Assembly (NCBI GenBank): GCA_017933995.1 | Contig: JAGBKI010000061.1 | Location: forward strand, 54,249-118,248 | From: Bacteroidaceae bacterium | Lineage (GTDB): Bacteria; Bacteroidota; Bacteroidia; Bacteroidales; Bacteroidaceae | Length of the DNA stretch: 64,000 bases | Direction of reading: 5' to 3' | Shown: one piece after another, positions 6,352 through 62,750 of the stretch | Layout: every line of letters starts with the position of its first letter | Position numbering within the stretch: the first letter of the stretch is position 1 | The notes under the pieces: generated by a model | Databases searched by the model: none | The model's input: only the letters and a program-made list of their open reading frames with translations | Told to the model about the DNA's origin: nothing | Made by a program: the position numbers and the translations under genes

Positions 6352-6464
6352 GTTTTGAGCTGATATTTTTTTATCAGAGTTTGTAAATCGGGGCATGGGA
6401 TACCGCGCCACCAAGTCCACTTATGAAAGAACGAAAAAGCCAAGAAAACTTCTTGTTGGCTTTA

Positions 6465-6560
6465 AAATCTCCAAACTTAGGCTTAATTTCTACAAATCAA
6501 GGCTTAATTTGGCGAAACTTAGGCTTAGTTTGTACAAACTTAGGCTTGATTTGGAGAATT
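6465..6560. repeat. 21-nt-period palindromic element, copy A
   Basis: Four 17-nt units (6473-6489, 6494-6510, 6515-6531, 6536-6552), consensus AAACTTAGGCTTAATTT, are separated by 4-nt linkers in the order CTCC, CTAC, GGCG, GTAC, GGAG. AATCTCC at one end mirrors GGAGAATT at the other. Copies lie at 48943-49038 (reverse orientation) and 60622-60719. This copy sits in the divergent gap between the MarR-GNAT and AraC-type genes. Confidence 0.85.
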
Positions 6561-6610
6561 AGTCCGTTGTAGAAAAGAATGAATCCGATGCGCGGGCGAT
6601 TTTTGGGGGG

Positions 6611-6991
6611 GCGCGGGGAGGTTAAATGCGGGGAAAGGTGATGCGAGAGGGGGTGCAGGTGGTGCTTCGGGCGGGTGATGTGGTTATAATAAGGGAACGG
6701 GAGTTATGGGCGGGCGCGCGGGGAGGTTAAATGCGGGGAAAGGTGATGCGAGAGGGGATGCAGGCGCTGCTGCGGGCGGGTGATGCGGTTATAATAAGGG
6801 AACGGGAGTTGTGGGCGGGCGCGCGGGGAGGTTAAACGTTGTGCGCGGGTGATGCTGCGGGCGGGTGATGTGGCTATAATAAGGGAACGGGAGTTATGGG
6901 CGGGCGCGCGGGGAGGTTAAACGTTGTATGCGGGTGCTGCTGCGGGCGGGTGATGTGGCTATAATGCAGGAGTCGGGCTGTGTGGGCGGGC
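6611..6991. repeat. G-rich tandem repeat, four units of 105, 105, 85 and 85 bp
   Basis: Units start at 6611, 6716, 6821 and 6906 with GCGCGGGGAGGTTAAA. They contain TGCGGGCGGGTGATG and GGTTATAATAAGGGAACGG, and end in GGGCGGGC. Units 3 and 4 lack about 20 bp. A degenerate fifth unit runs to about 7080. The strand is strongly G-rich. No credible protein is encoded. Confidence 0.85.
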
Positions 6992-27443: not shown

Positions 27444-27953
27444 GCGTGGGGAGGTTTTTGTCTAATTTTTCTAATTTGGTCCTCACGAATACGCTGTTAG
27501 AGGGCACAAAAAACTTAGTATCGTTTGCAGTTCCGTTACAAATGCATAACTTTGCACTACGAAACGCGGACAACGGTCTCCAAACCATAACAGGGCAACC
27601 CATATTGCTCACTGGCTGTAGCCCGTTTGCACCAGCGTTACTTTGACAATAAGGCCGCAAAGGTTCGATTGGGATACTCATCAAATAGAATCGAATTTCC
27701 GAGAAGGTTTGTCCTGCTCAATGGCGTGCCGATACGCACTGTAAAAGGTGTGGGGTCGGATTACAAAGACTGGACGGCGCTCAAAACTTGTTTTTCCCGG
27801 AGTTTCATCACATCACCGATGCGGTCTTTTTCTTTTCAGCCGGGAACCAGGTATTAGGGACAGGCGGCACAGAGCACGCCCAAGCGGACACCAGCGAACC
27901 ACATCCGCTTTTGCCCTAAGACCTTGTTCCCGCTTTTCAATCCCTTAAAAGCC
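27444..27953. other. 510-bp gap before rarA: strong promoter and long leader, no confirmed gene
   Basis: Besides the promoter at 27524-27554, no convincing gene is seen. One frame late in the gap (FHHITDAVFFFSAGNQVLG, ending near 27919) looks protein-like, but it lacks a start and needs a frame change from the preceding KDWTALKT. It may be a decayed coding remnant of unknown family. Confidence 0.35.
27524..27554 (+). promoter_or_regulatory. consensus promoter far upstream of rarA
   Basis: TTTG (27524-27527), 19 nt, TAACTTTG (27547-27554), then CAC. The start of transcription would be about 27561, leaving a ~390-nt leader before rarA. Confidence 0.7.
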
Positions 27954-48499: not shown

Positions 48500-48942
48500 A
48501 AATCGCATTCCACCTGGCGTTTAACCAACAGCAAGCGCCGGAACAGCCTTAAACGCGAATTTTTACGCGGGGTTAGCATCGCCGACGCGTAATACAGGTG
48601 GCAAGTTGTCGTTTGCCGCCTGCGGACGAAAGGGTTTCGGTTGCAGGATGTGTGGGTTGTGGGTTATCAGTTATTGGTTGTGGACAGCAAATGGCGGGCT
48701 GTGGGCGCGGCCAATGCCATCACGCAGCAAAAATAGACAAAACTCTTTAAGAAACAAGGTCTAACGGGGATAAAAATGGTAAAGGAGCCTTCAAAAGACA
48801 GTCCGAGCGGGCGTGCATGTGCGTTTTTCTGTTAGGAAAAAAATGTTTCCTGAGCAGCATCATCAATTTGTGGCTTGTAAATTTTCGGCGTACACCAAGA
48901 AGATAGTATTTAACCCCACTGAAAAACTCCGCCGTGGCTTTC

Positions 48943-49038
48943 AATTCTCAAAATTAAGCCTTAATTTGTACAAACTAAGGCTTAATTTCGCCAAACTTAG
49001 GCTTAGTTTGTAGAAACTTAGGCTTAATTTGGAGAATT
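48943..49038. repeat. 21-nt-period palindromic element, copy B (reverse orientation)
   Basis: Units at 48951-48967, 48972-48988, 48993-49009 and 49014-49030, with linkers CTCA, GTAC, CGCC, GTAG, GGAG. Read on the minus strand, the linkers are CTCC, CTAC, GGCG, GTAC, TGAG, the same order as copy A. It lies in the divergent gap upstream of gyrA. Confidence 0.88.
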
Positions 49039-49218
49039 AGCCCAAGAAAGAAAGTTTTTGCAAGCCCACAGATAGGAGTTGCGGGGAAGATCGTGGCGAT
49101 TGGAAAGGCTGCAAGATGCAGAGAGCAAGGAAATGGAGGATAATGGCGGCGAAAGACGGTCGGCAGAACGCCCTGCCAGCCACGACAAAAGAGGGAAAAA
49201 GAAAGATAAGAGCGGGAT

Positions 49219-49294: not shown

Positions 49295-51898
49295 ATGGCA
49301 TTAGACGACAGAATCATCAACGTCAATATCGAGGAGGAAATGCGCTCCTCCTACATTGACTACTCCATGTCCGTAATCGTGGCCCGCGCCCTGCCCGACG
49401 TGCGCGACGGCTTCAAGCCCGTGCACCGCCGCATCCTCTACGGTATGGACCAAATCGGCAACACGCACGACAAACCCACCAAGAAGAGCGCCCGTATCGT
49501 GGGCGAGATACTGGGTAAGTACCACCCCCACGGCGACAGCAGCGTCTACGGCGCGCTGGTGCGTATGGCGCAGGACTGGAACATGCGCTACACGCTCGTC
49601 GACGGGCAGGGCAACTTCGGCTCGATGGACGGCGACAGCCCCGCCGCCATGCGTTACACCGAGGCGCGCCTCTCGCTGCTCGGCGAGGCCATGATGCAGG
49701 ACATCGACAAGGAGACCGTCGACATGCAGAACAACTTCGACGACACCCTGACCGAGCCCACCGTGCTGCCCACGCGCATCCCCAACCTGCTCGTGAACGG
49801 CGCCAGCGGCATCGCCGTCGGCATGGCCACCAACATCCCCACCCACAACCTCAGCGAGGTCATCGACGGCTGCGTGGCCTACATCGACAACCCCGACATC
49901 GACGTGCCGGGCCTGATGCAGTTCGTCAAAGCCCCCGACTTCCCCACTGGCGGCTACATTATGGGTATGCAGGGCGTGCGCGACGCCTACGAAACCGGGC
50001 GCGGGCGCATCGTCATCCGCGCCAAGACCGAGATTGAGAACACGCCCACGCACGACAAGATTGTCGTCACCGAAATCCCCTACGGCGTCAATAAGGCCGA
50101 ACTCATCCGCCACATCGCCAACCTGGTCGGCGAAAAGAAGATTGACGGCATCAGCAACGTCAACGACGAGAGCGACCGCGAGGGAATGCGCATCGTCGTC
50201 GACCTGAAGCGCGACGCCAACAGCGGCGTGGTGCTCAACAAACTCTTCAAGATGACCGCCCTACAGAGCAGCTTCTCCGTGAACTGCATCGCCCTGTGCC
50301 ACGGCCGTCCCAAACTGCTCACGCTGCGCGACTGCATCGGCCAGTTCGTCGAGCACCGCCACGACGTCACCATACGCCGCACGCAGTACGAACTGCGCAA
50401 GGCCCAGGAGCGCGCCCACATCCTCGACGCCCTCATCATCGCCAGCGACAACATCGACGAGGTGGTGCGCATCATCCGCTCCTCGCGCACGCCGCAGCAG
50501 GCGCAGGAACGCCTGATGGAACGCTTCAGCTTCGACGAGGTGCAGGCCAAGGCCATCGTCGACATGCGCCTCGCCCAGCTCACCGGCCTGCAGCAGGAGA
50601 AGTTGCACCAGGAATACGACGAACTGATGAAGCGCATCGAGTTCTACAACCTCATCCTGAGCGACGACAGCGTGTGCCGCAAGGTGATGAAGGACGACCT
50701 CATCGAAGTCAAGGAGAAGTACGGCGACGCCCGCCGCAGCGAAATCCTGCTCAGTGCCGAGGAGTTCAACCCCGAGGACTTCTACGCCGACGACGAGATG
50801 GTCATCACCCTCTCCCACCTGGGCTACATCAAGCGCACGCCCCTCACCGAATACCGCCAGCAGGCGCGCGGCGGCATGGGAAGCCGCGGCAGCGCCTCGC
50901 GCGACGGCGACTTCATCGAGCACCTCTACCACGCCACGATGCACAACACGATGCTGTTCTTCACAGCCCGCGGACGCTGCTACTGGCTCAAGGTCTACGA
51001 CATCCCCGAAGGCGCCAAGAACAGCAAGGGACGCGCCATCCAGAACCTCCTGCAAATCGAACCCGGCGACAGCGTCAGCGCCTGCCTCCAGATACGCAAA
51101 CTGGGCGACGCCGAGTTCTGCGCCAGCCACTTCGTCTGCTTCGCCACCCGCCTCGGCCTCGTCAAGAAAACCTGCCTCAGCCTCTACAGCCGCCCCCGCG
51201 CCAACGGCATTATGGCCATCAACATTCGCCCCGAGGACGAGGTGGTCAGCGTCATCCTCACCAACGGCGACAACGAACTCGTACTGGCCAGCCGCAACGG
51301 CAAGGCCATACGCTTCCACGAAAACCTCGTGCGCCCCATGGGACGTGTCAGCACCGGCGTGCGCGGCATGAGGATTGACGACGACGGCGAGGACGGCCTC
51401 GTGGGCATGATTGCCGTCAACGACCCCCAGCGCGAGACCATCCTCGTGGTCAGCGAGAAGGGCTACGGCAAGCGCACCGACGTCGACGAATACCGCGTCT
51501 TCACCGGGCGCGGCGGCAAGGGCGTCCGCACGCTCAACGTCACTGAGAAGACCGGCAAGGTCATCGCCCTGCGCGTCGTCATCGACGAGATTGACCTGAT
51601 GATCATCAACAAGAGCGGCATCACGCTGCGTATGCACGTCGACGAGATACGTGCCACCGGGCGTGCCACACAGGGCGTGCGCATCATCAACCTCGAAAAG
51701 CGCGGCGACACCATCAGCAGCGTCTGCCCCGTAGCCCGCGCCGAGGACGAAGAGACCGAGACCACAGAGGCCGCCGACGGTGTTGCCGTTAAAGCCACAG
51801 AGGCTGCGTCCGCCGAGGGCATAGAGGCACTTCCCGCCGCCCCCGAGGCCAAAGCCTCAGAGGCTCCCGCCCTCCCCGAACAGCCCACCCTGTTCTAA
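49295..51898 (+). CDS. gyrA: DNA gyrase subunit A
   Basis: GyrA carries the active-site tyrosine that cuts and rejoins DNA during negative supercoiling. The 867-residue protein shows Tyr121 ([11 protein letters not shown]), the quinolone region [17 protein letters not shown] (77-93) and the C-terminal beta-pinwheel. The GyrA-box-like motif is near [10 protein letters not shown]. The tail after residue ~810 is Glu/Ala/Pro-rich and low in complexity. Residue 86 (the E. coli Asp87 position) is Gly and residue 82 (Ser83 position) is Ser. A TPR protein gene follows, as in related genomes. Confidence 0.97.
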
Positions 51899-53421: not shown

Positions 53422-54675
53422 TTGCGCAAATACCTCTACATATTCTTCTTATTCACTGCCCTGACGGCCACAGCCCAAAAGACGGTAAGCCCTAAGAAAG
53501 CATACAAGCCCGTGCGCACCGCGCTCAAGGCAGGCAAGGCTACCGACGCGCTAACGGCCATCAACAAGTTGGCCGCCGACAGCGTCTACTGCGGCGACCC
53601 GAAGCTCTATGCCTACGGCATTGATGCCGAGCAGCTGCTTTGCGAAAGCTACAACGAGAAGATGTATCTCTCGCAAAAGATTGACACGGCGCAGTTCTTT
53701 GCCGCGAATTACGAGCTTTGCCGTTTCATCCTCCGTTGCGACACCGCCGAGCTGAAGAACGCCGCTACGCAAGGCCGCACTGGCACAGACGCTTCCCCGC
53801 TCCCCTATCGTCGGCAGAACCGCCACCTGTTGCAGCAATACTATCCCAACCTCAGTGCCGCTGCCCGTTTCCACTACGCCAAGCGGCAGTACGCCGAGGC
53901 GCGCCGCTACTTCGCTTACGTTTTCGGGCTGCCACGCCACGCCATCTGGGGAGGCGACACAGCCGTCACGCAGACCAAAACGTACCACGAGAACCGCTAC
54001 CTCGACTTCCGCTGTATGTACGAGTTGAAACAGTACGCCGACATGCCCGCCTGCGCCGCGCCCCTGCTCGCCGACAGCGCGCTCCACCAGAGCGTGCTCG
54101 ACATGCTCGTCACCGCAGCCCGCGAGCGCGGCGACAGCGCCGACTACATACGCCTCGTCCGCCAAGGGCTTGACGAGCAGCCCGGGCGTATGGAGTACTT
54201 CGCCGTGCTGGCCAACTACTTCACCGCCCGCGGCCTCTACGGCGAGACCGTGGCGATGACCGACACGCTCTTGGTGCGCGACCCCATGAACCGCTACTAC
54301 CTGCTCAGCCGCTGCCTCGCCCTGTTCGACATGGGGCGGCTCGACGACAGCAAGGTGGCCGCCGAACGACTGCTCAGTGTTGACAGCACCGCCGCCGAGG
54401 CCCACTACATCCTGGGCTACTACTATTTCCAGCAGGCCGAGGCCGTCGAACTGCCGCGCCAGACGCGCAGCGCACTCTACCGCTCCGCCAAGCAGCGCCA
54501 GGCCGACCTATACGCCGAGGCCCGGCCCCACGTCGAGCAGTTCCGCCAGGCCATGCCCGAGGAGCAGGAACGCTGGGCGCCGATGCTCTACAAGATATAC
54601 CTCAACCTCAACCTCGGGCGCGAGTTTGAGGAGATAGAACGCTTGATTGGCGGACTGCCATTGCCGCCCGCCTGA
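53422..54675 (+). CDS. secreted TPR-like helical repeat protein
   Basis: A 417-residue protein. The start is TTG 53422, giving the signal peptide MRKYLYIFFLFTALTATAQ directly; no ATG fits. The body is helical repeats (FHYAKRQYAEARRYFAYVFG, YLDFRCMYELKQYADMPAC, EYFAVLANYFTARGLYGETVAM, YYLLSRCLALFDMGRLDDSKVAAERLL, AHYILGYYYFQQAEAVE). It is related in style, though not obviously in sequence, to the TPR protein upstream. Function unknown. Confidence 0.8.
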   Translation: MRKYLYIFFLFTALTATAQKTVSPKKAYKPVRTALKAGKATDALTAINKLAADSVYCGDPKLYAYGIDAEQLLCESYNEKMYLSQKIDTAQFFAANYELCRFILRCDTAELKNAATQGRTGTDASPLPYRRQNRHLLQQYYPNLSAAARFHYAKRQYAEARRYFAYVFGLPRHAIWGGDTAVTQTKTYHENRYLDFRCMYELKQYADMPACAAPLLADSALHQSVLDMLVTAARERGDSADYIRLVRQGLDEQPGRMEYFAVLANYFTARGLYGETVAMTDTLLVRDPMNRYYLLSRCLALFDMGRLDDSKVAAERLLSVDSTAAEAHYILGYYYFQQAEAVELPRQTRSALYRSAKQRQADLYAEARPHVEQFRQAMPEEQERWAPMLYKIYLNLNLGREFEEIERLIGGLPLPPA

Positions 54676-54707
54676 TTTCAAACTCCCAGTCCCTAATCCG
54701 CCCCGTG

Positions 54708-54770
54708 TGCCTGGCTTTGGCAAACGCCTGCCTGGCTTTGGCAAACGTCTGCCTGGCTTTGGCAAAAAAA
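54708..54770. repeat. tandem array TGCCTGGCTTTGGCAAACG, exact 21-nt period
   Basis: TGCCTGGCTTTGGCAAACG starts at 54708, 54729 and 54750 (the third copy ends in a run of A). The core GCC-TGGCTTT-GGC is palindromic at its edges. It lies between the TPR and M3 peptidase genes. Confidence 0.85.
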
Positions 54771-59985: not shown

Positions 59986-60579
59986 ATGCCCGATTTTATG
60001 CCGCCTACCGCCCAGCCCGCCGCCCCTTTGGACAAACCCACCTTGCGCCACCACATTCGCGCGCTGAAGCGCGGGCAGACCGCTACGCAGTTGCGCGAGT
60101 GGTCTGCGCTGTTGGCCGATGCCCTGGCCACTCACCCTTGGTTTGTGGCCGCACGGAGCGTGATGCTCTTCGCCTCCCTGCCCGACGAACCCGACACGTC
60201 GTCGCTCCTCAGTGCTTTCGCCGCAAGCAAACGCCTCTTTCTGCCCGCCGTGGTAGGCGACGAAATCGAGGTGCGCCGCTACAGCCCCGATAATGTGCTT
60301 ACCACTGGAGCCTATGGCATTAGCGAACCGACGGGCGATGTGCTCCACGACCTCGCGGAGTTGGACTTGATTGTCGTGCCGGGCGTAGCGTTCGACCCCG
60401 AAGGCCACCGCCTTGGGCGTGGGCGCGGCTACTACGACCGCCTCTTTGCCCGCGCTGACGCACAGCCCCCCTCCCCTACCCGCCCACGCCGCTTGGGCTA
60501 CGCCTTTCCGTTCCAGATTCTGCCGCACGTCCCCTCAGAACCACACGACGCGCTGATGGACACCGTGCTGACGCTGTGA
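59986..60579 (+). CDS. 5-formyltetrahydrofolate cyclo-ligase
   Basis: A 197-residue cytosolic enzyme that converts 5-formyl-THF to 5,10-methenyl-THF with ATP. The family motif is VVPGVAFDPEGHRLGRGRGYYDRL (read in parts), with the N-terminal basic helix KPTLRHHIRALKRGQ and the central RRYSPDNVLTTGAYGISEP. It starts 8 bp after the S41 gene, so co-transcription is probable. Length is normal. Confidence 0.94.
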   Translation: MPDFMPPTAQPAAPLDKPTLRHHIRALKRGQTATQLREWSALLADALATHPWFVAARSVMLFASLPDEPDTSSLLSAFAASKRLFLPAVVGDEIEVRRYSPDNVLTTGAYGISEPTGDVLHDLAELDLIVVPGVAFDPEGHRLGRGRGYYDRLFARADAQPPSPTRPRRLGYAFPFQILPHVPSEPHDALMDTVLTL

Positions 60580-60621
60580 AACAAGCGCTGCAAGCCATGA
60601 AAATCCCGCCTTGTAGCTTTT

Positions 60622-60719
60622 AATTCTGCAAATTAAGCCTAAGTTTCTACAAATTAAGGCTTAGTTTGGCGAAATCAAGGCTTAGTTTGTACAAATTAAG
60701 GCTTAATTTGCAGAATTAG
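60622..60719. repeat. 21-nt-period palindromic element, copy C
   Basis: Units at 60630-60646, 60651-60667, 60672-60688 and 60693-60709, linkers CTGC, CTAC, GGCG, GTAC, GCAG. The ends AATTCTGCAAATTAAGCC and GGCTTAATTTGCAGAATT are perfect 18-bp inverted repeats. Relative to copy A the outer linkers changed together (CTCC/GGAG to CTGC/GCAG). It lies in a convergent gap. Confidence 0.9.
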
Positions 60720-60863
60720 TCCGCTGTAAAAAGTTTTTAGCCCGCCCCGGTTGGTTTCCGGAGCGGGCTAAGTGTTTGTTTATACGGCTTTGCTCAGGCC
60801 GGTCGCAAGCGCTGGGCGGCAAGGTGGCCATGGGCGTCAAGACGCAGCGTTGATAGGCGGGCA

Positions 60864-62512: not shown

Positions 62513-62539
62513 GCCATATTTCCCACTGCCCGTCGTGGG

Positions 62540-62641
62540 GGACGCTTCCAGCGTCCGTCATAAACACCCCGGCCACCGCAGGTTCGCTCCATTTCATTCC
62601 GCGAACCAGCGGTTACAGAGGGGGAGACGCTTTCAGCGTCT
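62540..62641 (+). terminator. hairpins after the acyltransferase gene
   Basis: GGACGCT-TCC-AGCGTCC (62540-62556) and AGACGCT-TTC-AGCGTCT (62625-62641) are perfect 7-bp stems of near-identical sequence; the second is followed by TTT. GGTTCGC/GCGAACC (62581-62607) pairs between them. 62642-62750 holds nothing recognised. Confidence 0.6.
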
Positions 62642-62750
62642 TTTCACTCCCGACAGGATATAACGAGAACGCTGGTAAAATCAATAGCGCGCAAGGAGTC
62701 CTTATTCGTCGCAAACACTAACGCACACTAAACCCCAACCGTTACTCCCG

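Follow-up and report, generated by a model that had tools for sequence, protein, structure and literature searches.

Chromosomal sites of the Noc and matS type are single, conserved and palindromic, have A/T edges, and occur in a copy number similar to that of the arrays described below. In the ends of Tn7 and in plasmid iterons several 21- to 22-bp protein sites lie side by side, and CRISPR arrays combine unique spacers of about 30 nt with cas genes. Among dispersed bacterial repeats, REP, BIME and REPIN sequences are presented in the cited accounts as high-copy intergenic palindromic repeats with over 100 copies per genome, and BIMEs as REPs that are regularly spaced in alternating orientation (PMC2817692, PMC3116915, PMC3733652). 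Noc-binding sites are characterized in the source cited here as specific sites scattered around the chromosome (PMC4331003). For the Bacteroidales, the account of BrickBuilt, a MITE minisatellite of Porphyromonas gingivalis, reports a dispersed element (19 in one strain) built of 23-nt direct repeats in larger number than the units described below (18 in one element), with terminal inverted repeats like those of the IS5 family and target duplications in 3 of 4 complete copies (PMC4596501).

To this background we add a dispersed array from a Bacteroidaceae bacterium, noticed in a stretch of 64,000 nucleotides (the window). The window contains three copies, A, B and C, at the places given in the preliminary description, and each has, as described there, four 17-nt units separated by 4-nt linkers at an exact 21-nt period (Table 1). 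Searching the window for the unit with up to 2 mismatches gave 16 matches versus a mean of 2.24 in 100 shuffles (largest 6), and the 12 exact matches among them together make up the three arrays. Other features of the window were recorded as well: a longer, G-rich tandem repeat adjoins array A (about 6590-6990), a 21-bp short tandem repeat with TTTGGCAAA boxes (CTGGCTTTGGCAAACGCCTGC) at 54674-54770 is possibly a further array family, and a Bacteroidales-1 (6S-like) RNA lies at 27653-27832 (Rfam RF01693, 108.7 bits), which supports an origin in the Bacteroidales.

Table 1. Cores and flanks of the three arrays in the 64-kb window.
Feature	Position	Strand	Description	Basis
Array A core	6473-6552	+	four 17-nt units, linkers CTAC-GGCG-GTAC	sequence, unit search
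Array A left flank	6389-6472	.	expected degenerate 21-nt units, A/T triplet per 21 nt	family-level result, 156 flanks
Array A right flank	6553-6636	.	expected degenerate 21-nt units	sequence and family-level result
Array B core	48951-49030	-	four units, linker order as in A on the minus strand	unit search
Array B left flank zone	48867-48950	.		family-level result only
Array B right flank zone	49031-49114	.		family-level result only
Array C core	60630-60709	+	four units, linkers CTAC-GGCG-GTAC	unit search
Array C left flank zone	60546-60629	.	overlaps end of ORF 59986-60579	family-level result
Array C right flank zone	60710-60793	.		family-level result only

The source genome (G000; 2.48 Mb in 66 contigs, 83.7% complete) was searched with DNA and pattern searches, followed by inspection of the stretches around each match. 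This gave at least 78 arrays, 77 with the four-unit core and one with two units, after 4 chance two-unit chains had been left out of 82. In five chains, those of window B, L100, L118, L122 and L124, chance or imperfect extra units were removed, and at L100 and L118 further imperfect units stand beside the four-unit core. Because these searches favour intact copies, decayed copies may be under-counted. The preliminary description had named many copies with a conserved linker order as support, and random unit numbers and linkers as evidence against the element: the copies are indeed many and their unit number is near fixed, but the linker order varies. The order CTAC-GGCG-GTAC, common to A, B and C, is found in only 16 of the 77 four-unit arrays genome-wide (8 forward, 8 reverse), and linker order was therefore rejected as a property of the family. 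The linkers themselves are drawn from few sequences, mainly GTAC, GGCG/CGCC, CTAC/GTAG and GTAA/TTAC. A search for the GGCG junction matched 54 times without a mismatch and 20 times with one, in some arrays twice; among the matches listed, those with 2 mismatches had mostly other linkers. None of the 78 arrays lies inside a gene predicted by a simple gene finder; 25 are in divergent, 20 in convergent and 28 in tandem context, and 5 have one side undefined. A coding reading, in which by eye the 21-nt unit would equal seven codons, was dropped because the arrays are symmetric and outside predicted genes. A second dispersed repeat of about 245 bp, REP-like in having palindromes of the ACGCTTCCAGCGT type and long inverted repeats, was observed at window positions 62523-62643, at L073 (1660-1919) and at 24 further loci, often 88-150 bp from an array.

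The units follow the grammar AAA-half-S-half-TTT, and the half-words CTTAATTT, CTTAGTTT and CTAAGTTT account for 255, 155 and 132 of the 616 halves, respectively. Within a unit, CTTAATTT pairs with itself as often as expected (57 observed versus 56.4), and CTAAGTTT does not pair with itself at all (0 observed versus 15.1 expected). A hairpin would form where equal halves face one another over a linker; in G000 such pairs were observed 3, 6 and 0 times versus 23, 20 and 13 expected. Perfect inverted repeats across linkers are thus avoided in this genome; the opposite holds for the related genome G012, in which perfect palindromes across junctions are common. All 308 units have the same base at unit positions 0, 6, 10 and 15, and at position 3 they have either C or T. 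Among the 41 closest copy pairs, differences per site were 0.008 at fixed positions, 0.098 in linkers and 0.109 at variable positions, so that fixed positions change 12-fold less than linkers; the fixed and variable classes, but not the linker class, were defined from the same data as tested. The element as a whole is near-symmetric, and its core ends share AATCTSC/GSAGATT-like sequence.

The 21-nt lattice continues beyond the core. A/T triplets occur 4-6, 25-27, 46-48 and 67-69 nt from the last unit in about 99, 99, 93 and 73% of the 156 flanks, respectively, the commonest of them have no TpA step, and G/C pairs lie between them. The left and right flanks of one array fall into the same hand-made class in 26 of 78 cases versus 15.4 expected (P 0.002), and they are identical at 11.2 versus 10.0 of 22 positions, a value that none of 2000 permutations reached. 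Because the two flanks match each other above chance, they seem to belong to the element. A word resembling the core of G012 was present in 18 of the 156 G000 flanks versus 1.15 in shuffled flanks, and older array units may contain the new cores. Minisatellites with a 21-bp period, consisting of several near-identical copies with one A/T triplet per unit, adjoin the arrays at L114 (about 1844-2000), L088 (1540-1900) and L103 (2180-2310).

Arrays are dispersed over the chromosome at many sites, as chromosome-organising sites of the NBS and matS type are, and in two genomes they keep a minimum spacing. Within contigs of G000, none of 34 gaps was shorter than 7.5 kb versus 10.0 such gaps expected, and none of 4000 simulations was without them. 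The 1.3 Mb of G033 for which all matches were listed contain 38 arrays with a mean gap of 35 kb (CV 0.69) and no gap below 10 kb versus 9.4 expected (0 of 4000 simulations). A narrower pattern applied to the entire G033 contig gave a gap CV of 1.12 and a weak depletion of short gaps (3 gaps below 10 kb versus 7.5 expected, P 0.03). The null for spacing was random placement anywhere, not limited to intergenic gaps; matches less than 2 kb apart were merged, and the 21-bp repeat near 54.7 kb of the window was not counted as an array. L137 and L138, in which no array was seen, were left out of the spacing test and of the comparison of loci between G000 and G033.

Positional orthology of arrays between species was not found, either between G000 and G033 or between G000 and G012. 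Genes beside G012 arrays had their orthologue beside a G000 array in 1 of 12 cases versus 6 of 97 for other genes (P 0.57), and the comparison of G000 with 32 G033 arrays gave 9 locus pairs, which were judged to be near chance without a computed null. Array B lies 264 bp upstream of gyrA (49295-51898 of the window), and arrays are also present upstream of gyrA in G012 (where it stands at the end of a contig, with units at 16-57 and gyrA called as a gene from 328) and, at a distance of about 1 kb, in G067; the three together are one case and are given as an anecdote. Of the gene adjacencies across arrays 0 of 13 were kept, versus 28 of 35 across short non-array gaps (four congeners summed). We do not claim arrays as synteny breakpoints because this reading is confounded with operon boundaries, and there are only 2 long non-array control gaps, of which 0 kept the adjacency. 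At the G012 array L223 (5093-5155), the likely orthologue of one neighbouring gene lies beside array L096 of G000, and the opposite neighbour is 54% identical to a gene beside L098, which is also matched by another G012 gene; judged from these similarities, this placement might reflect a rearrangement at arrays.

Two of the 58 genus members, G000 and G067, gave matches to the G000 core, so that the conservation of site sequence among relatives that characterizes chromosome-organising sites was not observed. We also searched with a sequence-free layout pattern (TTT-4-AAA repeated at 21, with overlapping matches), using its reversed form as a control. Matches to the pattern and to the control were, among the matches listed, 158 and 4 in G000, 177 and 0 in G033, 27 and 0 in G062, 34 and 0 in G066, 92 and 3 in G001, and 41 and 8 in G067. 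On the same basis of the matches listed, the pattern was absent from 31 of the 58 genus members, and most other congeners had few matches or no more than in the control. G068 had 0 forward and 47 reversed-layout (AAA-4-TTT) matches among those listed, and maybe carries another variant. When 247 genomes of the order were searched, G262, which belongs to another family, gave 100 matches versus 0 in the control, G136 gave 16 versus 1, and G087 and G104 gave 6 versus 0 each, and several AT-rich genomes had similar forward and control counts. G116 (same family, another genus) gave 21 versus 0, the matches listed there being near-perfect 21-bp tandem repeats at four places; these repeats are of the TTTGAAAAAAAGGCGGCGGGC type and lie at C1:70668, C6:19848, C11:96216 and C15:82558. 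The cores differ between genomes, with AAAACGTGGGAGATTTT in G033 and AAAGGCCGGCAGCCTTT in G262. When arrays of at least 3 units were scored, exactly four units were present in 73 of 74 arrays in G000, 22 of 32 in G033, 3 of 6 in G062, 4 of 4 in G067, 2 of 2 in G066, 1 of 1 in both G001 and G136, and 1 of 3 in G262, where the other two have five units.

The closest relative found by gyrA is G012 (87% identical over the query), in which the G000 layout pattern was not found. This genome has arrays of its own, with units of the form AAA-N5-ACGGA-N5-TTT, or its reverse complement, that follow each other every 21 nt with no linker between them; they occur at seven places in 160 kb according to two methods, the profile of the second having been built from arrays of the first, and most have three or four units. 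A period scan for at least 68% self-identity over two periods, covering 17 congeners (1.20 Mb) and the window, 1.26 Mb altogether, gave 34 self-similar places at period 21, 18 at period 22 and 1 at period 23, including places in stretches known beforehand to hold arrays (3 in G067 and 6 in the window). Periods 15, 16, 18 and 24 gave 16, 9, 10 and 5 places, respectively, and periods 17, 19, 20 and 25-31 gave none. Repeat periods in multiples of three are expected from coding repeats, and some period-21 places look like these. At this threshold, periods 21 and 22 gave no place in three of the 17 sampled congeners (G004, G081 and G065). In G000, in 10 of 16 congeners and in one of five outgroup genomes (G222, lag 22, z 3.3), intergenic lag identity at 21 or 22 reached z of at least 3; 320 kb of outgroup stretches (G222, G116, G117, G179 and G166) contained no period-21 or -22 place. 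Stretches of G262 chosen around known matches contained two further period-22 places, 22-bp tandem palindrome arrays unlike the 21-bp arrays of this genome, at L298 (12663-12745) and L301 (8422-8517). A scan of genome contigs with the G000 core, possibly not including the source genome, gave one chance-looking match, in Fructobacillus, and the viral contigs scanned gave none.

Two readings offered in the preliminary description, a phased protein array and a structured RNA, fared differently. The protein array fits because the unit number is near fixed, the 21- or 22-bp period recurs across species, the copies are constrained and the arrays keep a minimum spacing, and these features, with a period of two helix turns, are what a functional binding array would show. 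By contrast, a structured RNA, or a bidirectional terminator of tandem hairpins, is very improbable. As RNA, both strands of A, B and C do have a more stable fold than shuffled sequences (z -3.4 to -8.8), but so would any near-palindrome, and the arrays are found in gaps of all three kinds, divergent, convergent and tandem. G000 avoids perfect inverted repeats across linkers, although for the commonest word it does not avoid equal halves inside one unit, and the Rfam search gave no family above threshold at arrays in the window or at the five array loci tested; RNA was rejected as the main reading. Intrinsically curved or wrapped DNA, such as gyrase or HU/IHF sites, in which the phasing of A/T tracts would matter and the core sequence would not, accords with the flank triplets every 21 nt and with the phasing of A/T tracts at 10.5 bp in G000 (R 0.67 versus 0.30 shuffled, 74 arrays). 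However, core positions in G000 are about as constrained as the A/T tracts, phasing is weak in G066 (R 0.30 versus 0.25 shuffled, 2 arrays), and in G262 it is below the shuffled value (0.14 versus 0.52, 3 arrays), so that curvature is not borne out as a conserved feature and this explanation is improbable.

A mobile, non-autonomous interspersed repeat is the strongest competitor, possible if on the unlikely side. A putative transposase would bind the four-unit array and deter insertion nearby, and such target immunity would account for the minimum spacing; Tn7 ends have several 22-bp transposase sites and show immunity. The turnover of core sequence and of array positions between close species favours such a repeat, and so does the second repeat that often lies close to arrays. 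Against it stand the 12-fold constraint on fixed positions relative to linkers and the lack of a match for array C in plasmid or phage collections. Y1_Tnp (RAYT) had 5 matches in G000 and 1 in G066 but was not detected in the array-bearing G033, G062, G001 (74% complete) and G067 (55% complete), and a RAYT-REP system was rejected on this account. A classical MITE was rejected for lack of target duplication, as the 78 arrays showed no excess of 4-9-nt direct repeats to about 150 nt out. The Mu/Tn7-type transposase C-domain (PF09299) had matches in 0 of 58 genomes, a weak argument since the control was silent as well.

Over the mobile repeat we favour, tentatively and at not quite an even chance, the reading of arrays as binding platforms for a putative chromosome-organising protein with fast-changing specificity. 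The constraint on copies and the keeping-apart of arrays point to function. Each array would be a platform for a sequence-specific, dimer-like DNA-binding protein, with one dimer on each 17-nt quasi-palindrome, and four sites two helix turns apart would place four dimers, probably cooperatively, along the same face of the helix, and the complex could spread outwards over the degenerate 21-nt units to its left and right. Arrays that lie in intergenic gaps about every 30-35 kb and are kept apart would suit a chromosome-wide job, for which compaction, domain boundaries, segregation and coupling to division are candidates. If the recognition sequence changes quickly, each species would have its own core while the layout stays. 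A bolder proposal, which we consider unlikely, is that the arrays are a bacterial counterpart of fast-evolving centromere satellites: genus-wide, dispersed four-site arrays and a co-evolving putative chromosome protein, with layout, density and minimum spacing inherited and the recognition sequence replaced genome-wide between close species. If the favoured reading is right, the genus would replace scores of chromosomal protein-binding arrays between close relatives while keeping their geometry, and would offer a tractable model of how chromosome proteins co-evolve with their sites under conflict or drift. The array could serve as a DNA bait for pulling out the putative protein. Should the arrays prove to be mobile instead, we would have an interspersed repeat whose recognition array has four units and whose copies obey a spacing rule at the scale of the chromosome.

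The preliminary description knew of no named element with this architecture, and our literature search, whose coverage excluded most subscription journals, found none: we found no named repeat family whose defining features the arrays meet, and their function may be of a known kind. The spacers that define CRISPR arrays are absent, as the linkers here are 4 nt and from a small set. From Tn7 ends and iterons the arrays differ in having at least 78 intergenic copies in one genome. With REP, BIME and REPIN sequences, as described in the accounts cited, they share being high-copy intergenic palindromic repeats; unlike REPs, they usually have four units at 21 or 22 bp, keep a chromosome-scale minimum spacing and, in G000 though not in G012, avoid hairpin pairing across linkers, and the RAYT transposase was not detected in four array-bearing species, some with incomplete genomes. 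Like the Noc/matS type, in so far as the source describes it, they are specific sites scattered around the chromosome, but they are four-site arrays with species-specific cores. BrickBuilt is the nearest printed Bacteroidales element: on its published description both are dispersed and made of short tandem repeats, whereas the arrays have four units, no target duplication was found at them, and the two elements differ in period, ends and unit number.
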